Assembly: GCF_019083965.1 (NCBI RefSeq)
Contig: NZ_JAHRCY010000006.1
Location: 310,001-374,000 of the forward strand
DNA from: Catellatospora tritici
GTDB taxonomy: Bacteria > Actinomycetota > Actinomycetes > Mycobacteriales > Micromonosporaceae
Direction: 5' to 3'
DNA length: 64,000 bases
The number at the start of each line of letters is the position of its first letter. Positions within the stretch are counted from its first letter, which is position 1. The notes beneath the pieces are model-generated. The model was not told the origin of the DNA, did no database searches, and was given only the letters and a program-made list of their open reading frames with translations. This document shows positions 57,067 to 64,000 of the stretch, piece after piece. The position numbers and the translations under genes were made by a program.

Positions 57067-58272
57067 TTAGATCCAGGTGACCTGCAAGGGGAGGGTGTGG
57101 GCGCCGGTCATCATGCGGGCGTCGTAGAACTCGGCGCCGTCGGCGATCTCGATGTCACGGCAGCGTTCCAGCAGGATGGTCATGGCCAGCCGGGCCTCCA
57201 GCCGGGCCAGCGGCGCGCCGATGCAGAAGTGGATGCCGTGGCCGAAGGCCAGGTGCTGGTTGGGGTTGCGGTCGGGGTCGAACCGGTCTGGGTGCGGGAA
57301 CCGCTTCTCGTCGCGGTTGGCCGAGGCGACCCAGGGCATGAGGATCTTCCCGGCGGCGATGCGCTGTCCGCCGACGGTCGCCTCGGTGGTGGTGAGCCGG
57401 GCCAGTCTGGGGAACGGCGACCGGAACCGCAGCACCTCCTCCAGCATCGGTGCGATCTTCGCCGGGTCGCGGCGTACCGCCGTCGCGGCGTCGCGGTTGT
57501 CGTCCAGGCACCACACCGTATTGGTGAGCAGCGTGGTCGTGGTGATGTGCCCGGCGATGAGCAGCACGCCGAGGAAGCCCACGATCTCCTCGTCGGTCAG
57601 GTGCTCGCCGTCGACCTCGGCCGCGATCAGCGTGGTGGTGAGGTCGTCGGCGGGGGACCGGCGGCGCTGTCGGATGTGCGCCAGCAGATAGTCGATCATC
57701 GCGCGCAGTCGCTCGCCGGCCTGGTCCAGCCGGGCCTGGTCCGGGATGACCCGCTCCGGCAGCTGCGCGTTGAGCAGTGAGTCGGCCCAGCGCCGGAACT
57801 CGTCGCGGTCGGACGCGGGCACTCCGATCAGCTCGGCGATCACGGTGACCGGCAGCGGGTAGGCCAGCGCCTGCACCAGGTCGAAGCTCGGGCTGCCCGC
57901 GACGGCGTCGAGCAGCTCGTCGGTGATGGTGGTGATGCGCGGGGCCAGCTCGGCCACCACCCGTGGGGTGAACGCCTTGCTCACCAGGCGGCGCAGCTTG
58001 TCGTGGCGGGGCGGGTCCATCCGGACGAAGTTGCCCCGGCTGAACAGCTCCAGTTCCGCCTGCGGCGGCATGAGGCCGGTCAGGTCGGAGGAGAACGTGA
58101 TCGGGTCGGACAGGACCGCCTCGATGTCGTCGTAGCCGAAGAGGTGGTAGGCGCCGTACTGCTCGTCCCAGCTGACCGGCTCGTGGGCACGCATGCGCGC
58201 GTACCAGTCGACGACGCCCTCGAACGTCCCGGGCTGAGCGGTCAACCCAGTTCCGGTGCTGACTGTCGCCAT
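57067..58272 (-). CDS. Cytochrome P450 (second)
   Basis: A 401-residue P450 resembling the CYP107 macrolide-type group. I-helix AGHITTTTLL carries the paired threonines, EEVLRFRSPF is the ExxR segment, and the heme loop FGHGIHFCIGAPLARLE has the ligand at about Cys350. It has no ferredoxin beside it. The substrate is unknown. The start is ATG 58272, with GGGGGTGG about 5 nt upstream; earlier GTG/ATG codons in frame add only three residues. It converges on the LAL regulator. Confidence 0.93.
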   Translation of the reverse strand: MATVSTGTGLTAQPGTFEGVVDWYARMRAHEPVSWDEQYGAYHLFGYDDIEAVLSDPITFSSDLTGLMPPQAELELFSRGNFVRMDPPRHDKLRRLVSKAFTPRVVAELAPRITTITDELLDAVAGSPSFDLVQALAYPLPVTVIAELIGVPASDRDEFRRWADSLLNAQLPERVIPDQARLDQAGERLRAMIDYLLAHIRQRRRSPADDLTTTLIAAEVDGEHLTDEEIVGFLGVLLIAGHITTTTLLTNTVWCLDDNRDAATAVRRDPAKIAPMLEEVLRFRSPFPRLARLTTTEATVGGQRIAAGKILMPWVASANRDEKRFPHPDRFDPDRNPNQHLAFGHGIHFCIGAPLARLEARLAMTILLERCRDIEIADGAEFYDARMMTGAHTLPLQVTWI

Positions 58273-58643
58273 CACGACCACCCCCGTCGATTGATCTTCA
58301 CCATCCTACCCAGGCAAACGCCCATTTCCTCGCAAATCACGGTCGCCGACCCTTACCGATCATGAATTTCGGAACCGGACATCTATGCCAAGATTCGCAT
58401 AACTTAATGATCAACATGAATGGAGGGTGACTCGACGGCACGAAGTGGACAGTCTGATCGTCCTGGTTGGAGGGGGGAAGATTTGGTATCGAATACTGTA
58501 CGTATGGACATTCTCCACCCCTTGTTATATCGGTCGACCTCGTCGTACGATCGGCCGTCTGGATCGGGGGAAGCGCTACCAGACAGCGGTTTCACCGACA
58601 GGTGTAAGGAGTCAGCGAAGCTCGTCGGGGACGAGGGGGGCGC
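58273..58643. other. AT-richer divergent promoter region
   Basis: About 370 bp between the P450 and the Tad-locus lipoprotein gene. It has several AT stretches (around 58315-58420 and 58480-58545) and no convincing gene. AAGATTCGCATAA (58390-58402) resembles the site upstream of the first P450. GTATGGACATT at about 58503 also occurs upstream of the chitinase gene. Confidence 0.5.
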
Positions 58644-59240
58644 GTGAATCCATACAGCCACAGTGGACGTTTCGTGGTCCTCGCGACGGTTGTCGCGGCC
58701 ACGTTGACCATGTCCGCCGGATGTGGCGGCCCGCGCGCCGTCGACCCCGACATCAAGCCCAACCGCGCCTCGGTCCAGTCGGCCGCACCCAGGCCCTCGC
58801 TGGAGCCCGAGGACCAGCAGAACGTCGACGCGGCCTGGGCCAACTTCCTGAAGCTGAACCGGATCTACGTCAAGGCCGCCCAGACCGGCAAGTACGACTG
58901 GGCCCCGGACATCACCGCCCGCCCGATGTACGCCTTCTCCGGCGGCCGCTACATGTCCGCGCTCGAACGTGATCTGGGTGTGCTGGCCGAGCAGGGCTAC
59001 GTGCGTACCGGCGAGCCGAGTGTCGCCCTGCGCCGGGTGGTGTCGGTGAGCGAGACCTCGATCACGGTCGAGGCCTGCGTCGACGACGCGGGCACCGACA
59101 CCGTCGACAAGAAGACCGGCAAGTCCGTCGTGGCACCGAAGCAGAACCAGCGCTACCCGGTCACCATGCGCGCGGGGCTCTACCCCGACGGCGCCTGGCG
59201 CTGGGTCGAGTCGCAGGCAGACAGGGGTGCGTCATGCTGA
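58644..59240 (+). CDS. Lipoprotein at the head of the Tad locus
   Basis: A 198-residue lipoprotein. The signal peptide has the lipobox MSAGC ending about residue 27, then a Ser/Pro spacer and a globular domain of unknown family (SALERDLGVLAEQGYVRTGEPSVALRRVVS, VEACVDDAGTDTV). It is probably anchored on the outer face of the membrane. It overlaps the next gene by 7 bp, so it belongs to the same operon. The start is GTG 58644, with GGGGGG upstream. Confidence 0.8.
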   Translation: MNPYSHSGRFVVLATVVAATLTMSAGCGGPRAVDPDIKPNRASVQSAAPRPSLEPEDQQNVDAAWANFLKLNRIYVKAAQTGKYDWAPDITARPMYAFSGGRYMSALERDLGVLAEQGYVRTGEPSVALRRVVSVSETSITVEACVDDAGTDTVDKKTGKSVVAPKQNQRYPVTMRAGLYPDGAWRWVESQADRGASC

Positions 59241-60181
59241 ACCGTCCGACCCTCTCCCCGCGCCGGGCCCTGTCCGGCCTGGCCGTCACGCTGCTCGCGG
59301 TGGTGGCCGGCCTGGTGGTGACGCCCCCGGCGGCGTGGGCCGACTACATCTACTGCCCGCCCAACAGCGGCGACTGCATCCTCATCGTCACCGGTGGGGG
59401 CGGCGGCGGGGGAGGCGGTGGCGGTGGTGGCGGCGGTGGTGGCGGTGCCGCCCTCTGCGAGCACGAGCAGCTGGGCGAGATCTCCTGCTACAAGCCGGGC
59501 CTCGGCTGGTTCAACCACACCGACAGCTGCTACTACGACCGGCTCGAGCTGTCCATCAACGACCCGGTGTGGGCCGGCCACGACCCGACCAAGGGCTTCA
59601 TGTACGCCGTCTGGTGCTGGGGCGGCCTGTCCGCCGGCTGGCAGCAGGCGACCACGGAGTACCTGACCAGCCCGCCGCCGGGATACGGCGGCCTGCCCTC
59701 CCCGATCAGTCTGGCCCTGCGCGCGATCAACCAGATGCCGCTGCGCGGCCCGGACATCGGGCTGGCGCCCGACCCGGCCAACGGGCCGGGCCTGGTCGGC
59801 CTGCCGGTGTGGATGTGGAACGAGGTCAGCGACCGCACCTGGGGGCCGATCTCGGCCACCGCCTCAGTGCCGGGGCTGTCGGTCACCGCCACCGCCAACG
59901 TGCGCCGCATCGTCTGGAACATGGGCGACGGCCACACCGTGACCTGCTGGAACGCGGGCACCGCGTACACCGCCTCGCGGGGCAACACCTCGTCGCCGAA
60001 CTGCGGTTACAAGTACTCGCAGTCCTCGCGCGACAAGGCGAACGGGAAGTACACCGTCACCGCCCGCAGTTACTGGCGCGTGACGTGGTCCGGCGGCGGC
60101 CGCTCGGGCACGGTCAACCTCACCCGGGTGTCCTCGATCACCGTCCGGATCGACGAGATGCAGGTGGTGAACAACTCATGA
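59234..60181 (+). CDS. Secreted protein with poly-glycine tract
   Basis: A 315-residue secreted protein. A signal peptide (about 1-37, ending AAWAD) is followed by about ten Cys-containing residues and a run of 18 glycines (about residues 54-71). The remainder is Trp/Cys-rich with six or more cysteines (CYKPGLGWF, YAVWCWGGLS, VTCWNAGTAY, NCGYKYSQSS) that likely form disulfides outside the cell. The family is not recognised. Position in the Tad operon suggests a pilus-associated or secreted substrate. Confidence 0.8.
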   Translation: MLNRPTLSPRRALSGLAVTLLAVVAGLVVTPPAAWADYIYCPPNSGDCILIVTGGGGGGGGGGGGGGGGGGAALCEHEQLGEISCYKPGLGWFNHTDSCYYDRLELSINDPVWAGHDPTKGFMYAVWCWGGLSAGWQQATTEYLTSPPPGYGGLPSPISLALRAINQMPLRGPDIGLAPDPANGPGLVGLPVWMWNEVSDRTWGPISATASVPGLSVTATANVRRIVWNMGDGHTVTCWNAGTAYTASRGNTSSPNCGYKYSQSSRDKANGKYTVTARSYWRVTWSGGGRSGTVNLTRVSSITVRIDEMQVVNNS

Positions 60182-60224
60182 GCGAGCACCCGCAGGTGAG
60201 GCACAGCAGTCAGGAGACCAGCGC

Positions 60225-60899
60225 ATGAGCATCGCCACTACGAACACGCCCGCGCGGGCGCCGCTGCCGCCGATCGGGGTGGCCCGTTCGGCGCCGCGCC
60301 GCCGATCCTGGGCCCAGGGCTCGCTCGCGGTGCTGCTCATCGTGCTCGGCGCGCTGACCGCCGGATACGTGGTCATGCGCATGGGCAGCACGCACGACTT
60401 CCTCGCCGTCGGCGTCCCGGTCGGGGCAGGCGCCGAGATCCGCGCGGCGGACCTGGTGATCGTCCGGGTCAACGACGCGGCGGGCCTCAAGCCGATCCCG
60501 GCCGAGCAGGCCGCGAACGTGGTCGGCAAGCGCGCGCTGATGGCGCTGGTGCCCGGTTCGCTGATCACCATGGACCAGATCACCGACACACCGGTGCCGG
60601 GACCGGGCATGGAGCTGGTCGGCATCGCGCTGGACGAGGACCGGATGCCCACCCTGTCCCGCATCCCGGTCGGCGCCTCGGTGCTGATCGTGCTCAAGCC
60701 GGCGGACCGCCCGGCCGGCGAGGCCGGCACCCCCGAGCTGGTGCCGCCGCGCACCATCACAGCGAAGATCATCGATCGGATCGCCGGCACCAAGGTCGGC
60801 CAGACCATCCTCAACGTCGAGGTCGCCACCGCCGACGCGCCCACCGTCGCGCTGGCCGCGGCCGACAAGCGCCTCGTGCTGACGCTCGACGGTCCGTAG
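60225..60899 (+). CDS. SAF domain protein, CpaB/RcpC-like
   Basis: A 224-residue protein with one N-terminal membrane helix (about 29-50) and an SAF domain (DFLAVGVPVGAGAEIRAADLVIVRV) as in Flp pilus assembly protein CpaB. CpaB is thought to act at the cell wall or secretin level; Gram-positive versions lack the outer-membrane secretin. RBS AGGAG lies 8 nt before ATG 60225. The adjacent CpaE/CpaF genes support the assignment. Confidence 0.85.
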   Translation: MSIATTNTPARAPLPPIGVARSAPRRRSWAQGSLAVLLIVLGALTAGYVVMRMGSTHDFLAVGVPVGAGAEIRAADLVIVRVNDAAGLKPIPAEQAANVVGKRALMALVPGSLITMDQITDTPVPGPGMELVGIALDEDRMPTLSRIPVGASVLIVLKPADRPAGEAGTPELVPPRTITAKIIDRIAGTKVGQTILNVEVATADAPTVALAAADKRLVLTLDGP

Positions 60900-60908
60900 G
60901 CGGCCACG

Positions 60909-61697
60909 ATGACGCTGATCGCCCTGGTCTCGGCGAAGGGCTCGCCGGGCTGCTCGACCGCCGCGCTCGCCTTCACGCTGACGTGGCCCGCCCCGACCCT
61001 GCTGGCCGAGTGCGACCCGGCGGGCGGCGACCTGCTCGCCGGCTACCTGTCGCGCTACGAACTGCCCACCACCCGGGGCGTGCTGCCGCTGGCCTCCTCG
61101 GCCCTGCGCGGCACCGCCGAGCAGGACCTGACCGGAAACCTGATCGACCTGGACTCCCCGCGCCAGCAGCGGATGGCCCTGCCCGGCCTGACCGAGCCCT
61201 CGCAGAGCTCGTCGCTGAACCTGGCCTGGACCAGCCTCGCCGACCTCTTCGCCCGGATGACCGGCAGCACGGTGCTGGCCGACTGCGGCCGCCTGGCCGC
61301 GGCGAACCCGCCCTGGGCGCTGCTCGGCCGGGCCGACCTGGTGCTGCTCACGGTACGGGCGCGCTCGCTGCGCACGGTCTCCCCGGCCGCCTCCGCGATC
61401 GGGGCGATGCGCCGCGAACTGCCGCCGGGCTTCGTGGAGAGCAGCGTCGGGCTGCTGCTGGTCGGCAGCGGCATCTCCGGCCGCGACATCGCCCGCAACC
61501 TGGGCGTGCCGGTGGTCGCCGCGCTGCCGTGGGATCCGGGCAGCGGCGCCGCGCTGTCCGGCGAGGGCCGGGGGCGGCGCCGGGCGCCGCTGATGAAGGC
61601 CGCCGCCGCGGCGTACGACAACGTCTGCGCGGCGATGGCGGTGGCCCGGCCGGAGGCCTCGCGCCGCGACACCGAGCGACTGCCGGTGGTCCGATGA
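60909..61697 (+). CDS. CpaE/MinD-like ATPase of the Tad locus
   Basis: A 262-residue P-loop protein with a deviant Walker A loop (SAKGSPGCSTAAL, residues 8-20) of the ParA/MinD group, and LLAECDPAGGDLLAGYL for the Walker A' Asp. It probably helps localise the secretion machine. There is no receiver domain, so it is a shortened CpaE. Its stop overlaps the cpaF start by 4 bp. Confidence 0.88.
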   Translation: MTLIALVSAKGSPGCSTAALAFTLTWPAPTLLAECDPAGGDLLAGYLSRYELPTTRGVLPLASSALRGTAEQDLTGNLIDLDSPRQQRMALPGLTEPSQSSSLNLAWTSLADLFARMTGSTVLADCGRLAAANPPWALLGRADLVLLTVRARSLRTVSPAASAIGAMRRELPPGFVESSVGLLLVGSGISGRDIARNLGVPVVAALPWDPGSGAALSGEGRGRRRAPLMKAAAAAYDNVCAAMAVARPEASRRDTERLPVVR

Positions 61698-63235
61698 CCG
61701 CCCGTCCGTACATCCCGCTGCCGCCACCGGAGCCCAATCCGCCGGTGCGCGTCAACGGTCACGCCCGGGTGCCGTCGCCGCACGGCACCGCCGTGGCGTA
61801 TGCCGGGCCGCCGTCACCGGGCGGCTCGGGGGCGGCGCCGAACCTGCCGGTGCCGATCGACTACGGCGTGGTCCGCCAGTTGCAGAGCCGCGTCACCGAG
61901 ACGCTGACCCGGCTGCTCACCGACGCCGCCAACGTCACCCCGGGCTACCGGCGCGAGGTCGCCGCCCGGATCGGCCGCGAGATCATCGCCGACTACGCGG
62001 TGGCGATGGCGCACGCGGGCCAGCCGATCAGCCCCGCGCAGGAGCAGGCACTGCTCGACGCGGTGGTGGCGGGCATGTTCGGCGCCGGGCGGTTGCAGCG
62101 GCTGCTGGACGACCCGTACGTCACCAACGTGCACATCATCGGCTGCGACCAGGTGCTGCTGCACCACGCCGACGGCAGCCGCAGCCGCGGCGAGCCCGTC
62201 GCCGACAGCGACGACGAACTCGTCAGCATGCTCCAGGTGCTGGCGATGCGGGTGGCCGCCACCGAGCGCCAGCTGTCGGAGTCCAACCCGGAGCTGGACA
62301 TGCAGCTGCCCGACGGCTCCCGGATGACGGTGCTGTACAAGGTGTCGCCCCGGCCGATCGTCTACATCCGCAAGCACACGCTGTTCGCGGCGTCGCTGGA
62401 GGAGCTGCGCGACCGCTACGGGATGATCGACCTGCTGATGTACCGGTTCCTGGTGAAGGCGCTGGAGGCGGGCGCCAACATCATGGTCGCGGGCCTGGCC
62501 GCCTCGGGCAAGACCACGCTGCTGCGGGCGCTGGCGCGCACCATCCCGGCGGGGGAGCCGTACATCACCCTCGAGGAGTCGCGCGAGCTGGGCCTGCACG
62601 AGGCCGCGATGCCGCAGGACGAGAACTGGGTGATCAGCCTGGAGGCCCTGCAGGGCCACGGGGAGTACGACAACAACGGCAAGCGCCGCGGCGAGAAGAC
62701 CCTGCACGACATGATGCCGATCACGCAGCGGCTCGGCGTGCGGCGGGTGATCGTGGGCGAGACCCGCGGCCGCGAGATCGTGCCGATGCTGCGGGCGATG
62801 ACGGTCAGCCGGGGCGCGATGTGCACCATCCACGCCCGGCAGGCGCGCGAGGTGATGGACTCGATCGTCCAGCTGGCCTGCTCGTACGGCAACGATATCG
62901 GCGCCGAGCAGGCGCTGCGGATGGCGGCGCAGGGCATCGACCTGATCGTCTACACGACCGTGGTCGACGAGCGGGCCATCGGCGGCGGTGAGCACCGGTT
63001 CGTCTCGCATGTGATCGAGGTCGGCGGCATGCGCGACGGCCGGGTCATCACCACGACCGTGTTCGGTCCCGGCCCGGACGGCCGGGGCGTGCCTCGCCAC
63101 CTGCCCGAACGCATCCGCGACGACCTGATGGACGTGGGCTACGACCCGCGTGAGCTGATCCCGTACATCGAGGCGGGGGCGCACAACCGGGGCTCGTGGA
63201 CGCGTGAACTGCTCACCAAGCGGGTGCGCTCATGA
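61694..63235 (+). CDS. cpaF: Type II/IV secretion ATPase CpaF (TadA)
   Basis: A 513-residue hexameric ATPase that powers pilus or secretion assembly. A Pro-rich N-terminus of about 55 residues comes first, then the core. Walker A is GLAASGKTTLL, the Asp box ITLEESRELGL, Walker B VRRVIVGETRG, and the His box MCTIHARQARE. The motifs are complete. It overlaps cpaE by 4 bp and the TadB gene by 4 bp. Confidence 0.94.
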   Translation: MTARPYIPLPPPEPNPPVRVNGHARVPSPHGTAVAYAGPPSPGGSGAAPNLPVPIDYGVVRQLQSRVTETLTRLLTDAANVTPGYRREVAARIGREIIADYAVAMAHAGQPISPAQEQALLDAVVAGMFGAGRLQRLLDDPYVTNVHIIGCDQVLLHHADGSRSRGEPVADSDDELVSMLQVLAMRVAATERQLSESNPELDMQLPDGSRMTVLYKVSPRPIVYIRKHTLFAASLEELRDRYGMIDLLMYRFLVKALEAGANIMVAGLAASGKTTLLRALARTIPAGEPYITLEESRELGLHEAAMPQDENWVISLEALQGHGEYDNNGKRRGEKTLHDMMPITQRLGVRRVIVGETRGREIVPMLRAMTVSRGAMCTIHARQAREVMDSIVQLACSYGNDIGAEQALRMAAQGIDLIVYTTVVDERAIGGGEHRFVSHVIEVGGMRDGRVITTTVFGPGPDGRGVPRHLPERIRDDLMDVGYDPRELIPYIEAGAHNRGSWTRELLTKRVRS

Positions 63236-64000
63236 TCCAGATTCTGGCGATCCTGTCGGTGCTGCTGATCGGCGTCGGCCTGACCATGGCCGTCGTGTTC
63301 CTGATCGGCACCACCAAGCCGATCGGCCCGGCCTCGCCGACGAAGCTGTGGCTGCGCCGGTTCTGGGCCGGCCCGGGCCGCACCGCCGCGCAGCGCCGGG
63401 CCCACCGGTCGCTGCTGGTCTTCGCGGTGGTGGCCGGGGCGGCCGCGTGGCTGTTCACCGGCTGGCCGGTCGGCGGCGTGGTCGTGATGCTGGCCATCCC
63501 GGGCGTGCCGTGGCTGTTCGCGGCGGCCGGCGCGGAGAAGAAGGCGATCGCCCGGCTCGGTGCGCTGGAGACGTGGACCCGGCGGGTCAGTGACTACGTG
63601 CGCAACGGCATCGGGTTGCAGGCCGCCATCATCGCCACCGCGCGCACCGCACCGCCGCTGCTGAACATCGAGGTCAAGACGCTGGCCGCCCGGTTGCAGG
63701 CGGGCACCGACGCGCCCACGGCGCTGCGGATGTTCGCCGAGGACCTCGACGACCACAGCTCCGACGAGGTTATCGCGCCGCTGATCCTGCAGGCCGCCGA
63801 CGCGGGTGACGGTCTTTACGCCGCGCTGACCGACATCGCCCAGTCGCTGTCGGACGAGGTCGTGGCCCGGTCCACGGTGGACAGCGAGCGGGCCAGCGCC
63901 CGCTTCACGGTGCGCTTCCTCACCGGGGTGACCGTGGCCGTGCTCGTGTTCGGCGCGTTCAGCGCGGGATATGCCGCGCCCTACCGCACCAGCATGGGGC
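63232..64000 (+). CDS. TadB-type inner-membrane secretion protein (partial)
   Basis: Only the first 256 residues are present; the gene runs off the window. A type II secretion system F domain begins at about residue 110 (LETWTRRVSDYVRNGIGLQAAI, EDLDDHSSDEVIAPLILQAAD). Membrane helices occupy residues 4-25 and 60-95, and a further one begins at about 235. It forms the platform for CpaF. TadC and pilin genes are expected downstream. Confidence 0.9.
   Translation, partial: MIQILAILSVLLIGVGLTMAVVFLIGTTKPIGPASPTKLWLRRFWAGPGRTAAQRRAHRSLLVFAVVAGAAAWLFTGWPVGGVVVMLAIPGVPWLFAAAGAEKKAIARLGALETWTRRVSDYVRNGIGLQAAIIATARTAPPLLNIEVKTLAARLQAGTDAPTALRMFAEDLDDHSSDEVIAPLILQAADAGDGLYAALTDIAQSLSDEVVARSTVDSERASARFTVRFLTGVTVAVLVFGAFSAGYAAPYRTSMG

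Follow-up and report, generated by a model that had tools for sequence, protein, structure and literature searches.

A lipoprotein and a glycine-rich secreted-type protein form a two-gene module of a Flp-less Tad operon in Catellatospora tritici and its relatives

We analyzed a stretch of 64,000 nucleotides from Catellatospora tritici (genome 9.59 Mb; contig NZ_JAHRCY010000006.1, here C44, positions 310,001 to 374,000), hereafter the window, in which position x corresponds to C44:310000+x. The window ends inside an operon for a Tad-type pilus that is led by two genes, encoding a lipoprotein (L) and a signal-peptide protein rich in Trp, Cys and Gly (G). As a preliminary description of this DNA had proposed, six open reading frames (ORFs) arranged as an operon occupy positions 58644-64000, all on the plus strand: L and G overlap by 7 nt, the ParA-like and CpaF genes by 4 nt and the CpaF and TadB genes by 4 nt, with gaps of 43 and 9 nt at the other two junctions. 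The features of this part of the operon, each with its basis, are:

58644..59240, plus strand: L, lipoprotein, 198 aa, GTG start, lipobox Cys27 (ORF, alignment and AlphaFold2 (AF2) model)
59234..60181, plus strand: G, signal-peptide, Trp/Cys/Gly-rich protein, 315 aa (ORF; found in 101 of 150 family genomes and in 215 plasmid records)
59393..59446, plus strand: tract of 18 Gly codons, a flexible linker between the N-terminal CPPxxxxC segment and the folded part of G (codon inspection, 63-sequence alignment)
59732..60166, plus strand: predicted PKD-like (immunoglobulin-type) domain of G (VIA on the AF2 model)
60225..60899, plus strand: SAF-domain protein, CpaB/RcpC-like (Pfam SAF, E 1.1e-5)
60909..61697, plus strand: ParA/TadZ/CpaE-like ATPase (N-terminal motif and position)
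61694..63235, plus strand: CpaF/TadA-type ATPase, divergent from classical TadA (Pfam T2SSE, E 7.6e-12)
63232..64000, plus strand: TadB platform protein, cut by the window end and running on to C44:374131, 131 bases more (Pfam T2SSF, E 3.6e-11)

These Pfam matches uphold the earlier naming of the SAF, CpaF and TadB genes, with the CpaF of the window matching TIGR03819 below its cut-off (115 bits, cut-off 373). The label "short CpaE" stood only in part: a Walker-A-like stretch at the N terminus and the position of the gene both fit, and a ParA/CpaE-like profile matched in 85 of 86 loci, but the protein has no Pfam or NCBIfam match at E<=1, so that its name rests on N-terminal sequence and position. 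Neither of the two leading proteins matches a pilin or a prepilin peptidase, in agreement with the preliminary description, which had also pointed to the sequence past the window for the remaining Tad genes. TadC and two TadE genes do lie there, and the operon continues on C44 as far as C44:378646:

C44:374131: end of TadB
about C44:374128-375006: TadC (T2SSF, E 3.1e-8)
C44:375025-375228: membrane protein of 67 aa
C44:375232-375672: first TadE (PF07811, E 9.2e-7)
C44:375669-376097: second TadE (PF07811, E 2.1e-8)
C44:376094-376507: Tad-type protein (PF13400, E 0.0097, below its cut-off)
C44:376538-378646: LysM protein, 702 aa

The locus combines several components of a Tad (type IVc) pilus, namely a CpaF/TadA-type ATPase, TadB and TadC, TadE pseudopilins and a CpaB/RcpC SAF protein. 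Both TadE proteins carry a G/XXXXE site (G-DGTVE and G-SATIE) followed by a hydrophobic stretch, and no G/XXXX[E/D] site was found in the 67-aa membrane protein; with a crude gene caller, at least one pilin-like ORF with such a site was present in 60 of 73 loci. The window operon itself holds neither a Flp pilin nor a prepilin peptidase, the only PF04964 (Flp_Fap) match in the genome being at C45:357262 and the only A24 match at C45:358117. Both fall in L006 (C45:345000-362000), one of two further Tad-type loci that this genome has; the second is L007 (C45:88000-104000), and neither L006 nor L007 carries L or G. The secretin that the preliminary description had called missing gave 0 matches in the genome (PF00263; the control search gave matches in 6 of 14 genomes), an absence expected in a monoderm. 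We also observed an A24 family peptidase of its own beside the operon in Micrococcus, Arthrobacter pAL1 and Curtobacterium plasmids (L102:17794-18429, L190:21459-22049 and L191:22174-22773), of which the window operon has no counterpart.

Across the family Micromonosporaceae, L and G accompany this type of CpaF with great regularity. Single-sequence searches of 150 family genomes matched G in 101 genomes, L in 50 and CpaF in 144, the CpaF search also catching other TadA proteins. All listed matches were used (150 for G, 55 for L and 150 for CpaF); further G and CpaF matches exist beyond those listed, and this first count, being too low, was corrected with profile scans. Among the matches listed, G precedes CpaF by 1.8-3.1 kb (start to start) at 131 of 150 CpaF places; starting from G, a same-strand CpaF follows at a distance of 1.8-3.1 kb at 131 of 150 places, and L is immediately followed by G at 53 of 55. 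Profiles then recovered the L-G pair in 16 of the 18 CpaF exceptions examined (out of 19, leaving out G131:C71, which is cut at a contig start), with 10 in the usual 5' place, where G had been missed by the single-sequence search or lay beyond its listed matches, five divergently oriented on the 5' side, and one at the 3' end. The other two exceptions are a locus cut at a contig end (L209) and one (L206) whose pair lies about 15 kb off (L223). These counts bear out the earlier view that the two leading genes belong to the locus, for which co-occurrence with cpaF across the family had been named as a check.

The same pattern emerges from the best 80 of 149 named relatives with G from GTDB. L was recognized in 76 of these 80 loci; in the remaining four the G match starts <=162 bases from a contig end. 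CpaF was recognized in 74, the remaining six loci ending within about 2.2 kb of G. Wherever recognized in these loci, the gene order is L-G-SAF-ParA-CpaF-TadB-TadC-pilins-LysM. The pair can also sit elsewhere in the operon, always as L then G: after LysM on C. acnes and R. fascians plasmids, and between the pilins and LysM in M. luteus, Arthrobacter pAL1 and Curtobacterium plasmids. Within the window's genus, each of the 11 genomes drawn carries both L and G, some on chromosome-sized contigs, and in the close relative Catellatospora sp. KI3 G shows 87% identity. The window's own genome has a single match each for L and G, additional L-profile matches being weak (E 4.4e-5 or more) and covering at most the N-terminal half of the model. 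In a CpaF tree the classical loci lie far from the window's CpaF, as do some pair-associated plasmid CpaFs at equal distance, and for this reason we make no clade claim. Collectively, these findings establish L and G as a real two-gene module of this Tad subtype.

From the opposite direction, 17 of 19 G exceptions were examined, leaving out G094:C118 (a 4-kb contig that has L) and G131:C245. L lies beside G in 13 of 13 further family G places picked for having no listed CpaF downstream, and seven of these 13 regions show the Tad operon or its start. A CpaF-type match is present in all 12 genomes checked that have an orphan or sampled G, but this carries little weight, as 144 of the 150 family genomes contain such a match. 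Separately, we note the orphan pairs L213, L214 and L215 (all from genome G023), L221 and L223; the three G023 pairs lie amid genes that look unrelated by eye, and among the matches listed this genome has seven G vs. three CpaF.

Beyond the family, a draw across the phylum matched G in 43 of 296 genomes. Sixteen regions from outside the family (three of them in the same class and 13 more distant) showed the operon in five cases, L in 11 and G alone in five, and since the L and CpaF profiles were built from G-selected loci, absence at this level may partly reflect low sensitivity. In one region counted as G alone (L228), the gene just upstream looks lipoprotein-like by eye.

Turning to the proteins themselves, G begins with a signal peptide, consistent with the secreted character that the preliminary description had given it, and the 18 consecutive glycines reported there occupy residues 54-71. 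The tract mixes GGC (8), GGT (7), GGG (2) and GGA (1), and with all four Gly codons in use it is therefore no simple DNA repeat. Over an alignment of 63 sequences (62 of the 80 locus sequences plus the window's), the linker has a median length of 28 aa and a median Gly content of 45%, with runs of at least 10 Gly in 10 of 63; a linker that is kept while long pure runs are confined to these few suggests that the poly-Gly acts as a tether, its purity being peculiar to Catellatospora and a few other genera. Cys92 and Cys221 are conserved in 63 of 63 sequences and Cys202 in 62 of 63. G has no Pfam or NCBIfam match at E<=1. In its AF2 model, with a predicted local distance difference test score (pLDDT) of 84, mature residues 131-275 match PKD domains by VIA, with Z 11.3 to PKD domain 2y72_A (85 aligned, root-mean-square deviation (rmsd) 1.6 A) and, as the top row, Z 11.7 to the first 93 residues of the carbohydrate-binding protein 2c26. 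The PKD assignment combines this VIA re-examination of Foldseek candidates with Pfam matches in relatives, where PF00801 is found in two of the 63 sequences (best 5.6e-6) and PF18911 in six (best 0.0019), the window's own G having none. VIA rows mostly span model residues 131-275, and we claim no fold for the Cys-rich first half. The predicted architecture of G is thus a signal peptide, a Gly-rich linker and a folded portion whose last domain is PKD-like. Note additionally that plasmid homologues of G are often annotated as "ATP/GTP-binding protein" or "ATP-binding protein", to which the predicted fold lends no support.

L is predicted to be a lipid-anchored NTF2-like protein. In an alignment of 61 sequences (60 of the 76 locus sequences plus the window's), Cys27, which follows a hydrophobic stretch, is nearly invariant, and G123, C145, D147 and C198 are invariant. 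The AF2 model (pLDDT 86) predicts an NTF2-like fold from about residue 52, with a Foldseek match to 5d9r at E 9.2e-7 and a VIA match to 6jzn_C at Z 13.2 (127 aligned, 2.7 A). L has no Pfam or NCBIfam match at E<=1, and the 61 alignment sequences gave no Pfam match at E<=0.01. A phage origin of the module was also considered and rejected: a search of 50,697 phage records with G found nothing at E<=0.001, and PHROGs returned nothing for G and only weak matches for L (best E 0.072).

The module is also common on plasmids, with G present in 215 plasmid records. Linear records account for 13 of the 16 plasmid regions examined, and the operon is seen in 14, the hosts being Streptomyces, Micromonospora, Micrococcus, Arthrobacter (pAL1), Curtobacterium, Rhodococcus and Cutibacterium; the pair stands alone in a Pimelobacter region (cut by the record start, with a LysM-profile match) and in one from S. 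clavifer. L-G and the operon are therefore tightly coupled within the family and on the plasmids examined, but not universally so. Using phmmer with 10 queries (nine conjugation-type, one A24 peptidase), we found conjugation-type genes (VirB4, TcpC-like, NlpC/P60-lytic transglycosylase, Replic_Relax or FtsK) in seven of the 16 plasmid regions, three of which had supplied queries; among the 12 regions supplying none, four matched. The corresponding figure for the GTDB loci, with flanks of up to 10 kb, is seven of 80, two of them by wall-hydrolase queries alone, and no VirB4, coupling protein or relaxase match lies near the window operon (phmmer on L004, L005 and the window). On the Micromonospora plasmid, FtsK resembles a chromosomal FtsK in possessing alpha and gamma domains. 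VirB4 and G share 18 records (103 of 215 G records and 60 of 277 VirB4 records entered the test), in which they lie a median of 23 kb apart, closer than random with a combined p of 0.0014 that assumes independent plasmids and uniform positions and has no control from other plasmid stretches. Among the Streptomyces VirB4 records listed, 16 of 28 are also among the listed G records, which on this rough sampling is about what would be expected if most VirB4 plasmids carry G. Plasmid pAL1 has been described as conjugative (PMC3534580), and S. mirabilis pI, transferable to S. lividans, carries a plasmid CpaF, an AAA (PF12846) protein and TcpC (PMC9195940). Since the operon sometimes lies near conjugation genes on actinobacterial plasmids, it may have a mating-pilus role.

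Published proteomics of Cutibacterium acnes bears on where G may reside. On the C. acnes plasmid p11-79, LysM, L and G follow four pilin-like genes in that order, so that the G homologue (293 aa, computed 30.5 kDa) is the second gene past LysM. Davidsson et al. (2017, PMC5696575) give APS60_12595-12610 as four pilin candidates, and at a locus-tag spacing of five the G homologue would be APS60_12625, entered in their Table 4 as "hypothetical protein, signal peptide" of 30.7 kDa; on spacing, size and signal peptide, this protein is very probably the G homologue. It was detected in secreted and in sheared surface fractions of both plasmid-positive strains, with scores of 1009 and 895 (sheared) vs. 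520 and 455 (secreted), alongside TadE2 (12.9 kDa, equal to the mass we compute), and appendages were reported from electron microscopy (EM) of plasmid-positive C. acnes (PMC5696575). APS60_12625 is named four times in the main text of that paper, each time in Table 4. By analogy with this probable homologue, G of the window may likewise be found both at the surface and in the supernatant. In the earlier account of Kasimatis (2013, PMC3666418), Table 2 ends with PAGK_2370, named RcpB from a CpaD match with an E-value of 0.53, with G falling outside that table; by its position PAGK_2370 is the L homologue.

A few further features of the region deserve mention. Directly upstream of the operon and divergent from it lies a cytochrome P450 gene (window 57067-58281, minus strand, Pfam p450). 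The LysM proteins of Catellatospora, Hamadaea, Rhizocola and Catelliglobosispora measure about 650-740 residues from profile start to stop, vs. 826-1089 in the other uncut loci inspected, and a C-terminal part seems to be missing in this group. After the LysM gene, a hairpin-like inverted repeat can be seen by eye (L004:12650-12705), possibly a terminator or a dispersed repeat.

We interpret L-G as an anchor and adhesin display module of the no-Flp, TadE-pilin type IVc (Tad) pilus of actinobacteria, a reading to which we give an even chance. Under this model, G would be exported by Sec and would form a disulfide-bonded body outside the membrane, with a PKD-like C-terminal part and a Gly-rich tether near its N terminus, and L, as a lipid-anchored NTF2-like protein, may hold G or hand it over at the outer face of the membrane. 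CpaF, TadB and TadC would build the filament from TadE-type pilins, and G could then be carried on the filament or at its tip as an adhesive non-pilin component, a role that we liken, with no homology implied, to that of non-pilin tip proteins such as PilC/PilY1. The LysM protein would presumably fix the pilus base to the wall, and the single A24 peptidase, encoded at the other Tad locus, would process the pilins in trans.

Several observations weigh against this display model. Of the 13 family regions described above, six hold an L-G pair while the stretch examined shows no Tad operon; one of the six sits on a 9-kb contig, and in another the operon lies about 15 kb away. Of the 16 regions from outside the family, 11 have G but no recognized operon, a contig end truncating one of them, and five have G but no recognized L. 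The preliminary description had named conservation without cpaF as an outcome that would refute its reading, and these cases partly go that way. Orphan G genes inside and outside the family indicate that G can have a life apart from the pilus. On its own, Foldseek found nothing significant for G, with a best E of 0.016 and no match at E<=0.001. Finally, the identification of APS60_12625 comes from locus-tag spacing, size and signal peptide, and its presence in the supernatant fits a freely secreted protein too.

Such a free protein is the core of one alternative, in which the operon works as a piston akin to a type II secretion system (T2SS), G being a secreted effector or enzyme pushed out by a pseudopilus and L its membrane receptor. 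The signal peptide of G, the C. acnes supernatant data (PMC5696575), a locus with short TadE-like proteins and no Flp pilin, and orphan pairs that could share one engine would all suit it; against this, a Sec substrate in a monoderm needs no second step, appendages have been reported by EM for plasmid-positive C. acnes, and in both strains the sheared fraction gives the probable homologue higher scores than the secreted one does (PMC5696575), so that we regard the piston as unlikely. Still less probable is the suggestion of the preliminary description that L and G replace the missing outer-membrane secretin as a conduit through the thick wall. In its favor are the signal peptide and the membrane anchor, the near-constant presence of the pair with this Tad type across the family and the lack of a secretin match in the genome, but the other Tad loci of the same genome manage with neither L nor G, the simpler envelope already explains missing secretin and outer-membrane parts in monoderm pili (review, PMC6916266), the predicted NTF2-like and PKD-like folds with a flexible tether are not pore-like, and the probable C. 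acnes homologue also occurs in the supernatant (PMC5696575). The conduit is, in our judgment, very unlikely. Orphan pairs and the loose coupling outside the family could also mean that L-G is an independent envelope module, binding for example wall or polysaccharide and sharing only regulation with the Tad operon. We consider this quite improbable, given that the pair accompanies nearly every CpaF of this type in the family and persists whatever its place in the operon.

A further proposal, compatible with the display model and adding a purpose to it, is that the operon was originally the mating pilus of mostly linear actinobacterial plasmids, with L-G serving recipient recognition and the chromosomal copies domesticated. 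Pointing this way are the number of plasmid records with G, the prevalence of the operon and of linear records among the plasmid regions, the conjugation-type genes in seven of 16 of them, the proximity of VirB4 to G, and the conjugative nature of pAL1 (PMC3534580). Other points weigh against it: three of the seven regions supplied queries, and of the 12 regions supplying none four had a match; the Micromonospora plasmid FtsK is chromosomal-like; conjugation-type genes appear in only seven of 80 GTDB loci and nowhere near the window operon; the VirB4-G p value depends on the assumptions given above; Davidsson et al. called the link to conjugation unclear (PMC5696575); and the occurrence of L and G throughout the window's genus, some on chromosome-sized contigs, fits a vertically kept function. 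We see a mating origin as possible but less likely than not. Taken one step further, L-G might be an exchangeable recognition cassette that makes the TadE-type Tad pilus a mating pilus, by which conjugative linear plasmids grip recipients before DNA transfer of a kind resembling type IV secretion system (T4SS) or TraB transfer, and several orphan pairs in one genome would supply a single engine with a choice of tips. The role of such a cassette would be comparable to that of the tip-adhesin type IV pilus of IncI plasmids. This cassette idea is slightly more doubtful.

The display model and its extensions matter for three reasons. A Flp-less Tad subtype is widespread in actinobacteria and their plasmids, and its two most constant extra proteins are annotated "hypothetical" or "ATP/GTP-binding" in the records examined. 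The folds and the pairing make L and G testable parts with respect to pilus display, what is gripped and a role in DNA transfer, the last being a question that Davidsson et al. had not settled for C. acnes plasmids. Our analysis also offers a likely identity for a strongly detected but unassigned surface protein in those published C. acnes proteomics (PMC5696575).

Likenesses to known proteins and systems place the module more precisely. The predicted fold of L resembles the NTF2-like domain of PARC6/ARC6 (Z 13.2) and the conjugation proteins pIP501 TraH (5aiw, Z 9.6) and a TraM fragment (3wz3, Z 9.1), a fold common to many unrelated proteins, and Pfam does not tie L to any of these. The C-terminal half of G is like the PKD domains of the collagenases ColG and ColH (Z 9.6-11.3), whereas G has no recognized enzyme domain, and like that of the archaeal surface protein 1l0q (Z 10.0). 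In the open-access literature we found no description of the L-G pair or its folds, which is weak evidence, as subscription papers were mostly outside that scope. At the level of the operon, classical Tad/Flp loci (C45:345-362 kb in the same genome, and M. luteus tad) share TadA, TadB, TadC and TadE-like proteins with the window operon; the classical locus of the same genome differs in having a Flp pilin and an A24 peptidase and in having neither L nor G. Imam et al. (2011, PMC3244431) proposed TadE-like proteins as the structural subunits in a subset of Gram-positive tad operons that have no Flp pilin, as we suppose here, in an account whose sections 12-13 describe neither the L-G pair nor either fold. 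Finally, the tad locus of the C. acnes linear plasmid (PMC3666418, PMC5696575, PMC3316620) is alike in its SAF, TadZ-like and TadA proteins, two T2SSF proteins, a small protein, three TadE-like proteins, LysM, and homologues of L and G, with the difference that its pair stands at the 3' end of an operon on a plasmid, whereas here the pair leads an operon on a 476-kb contig.

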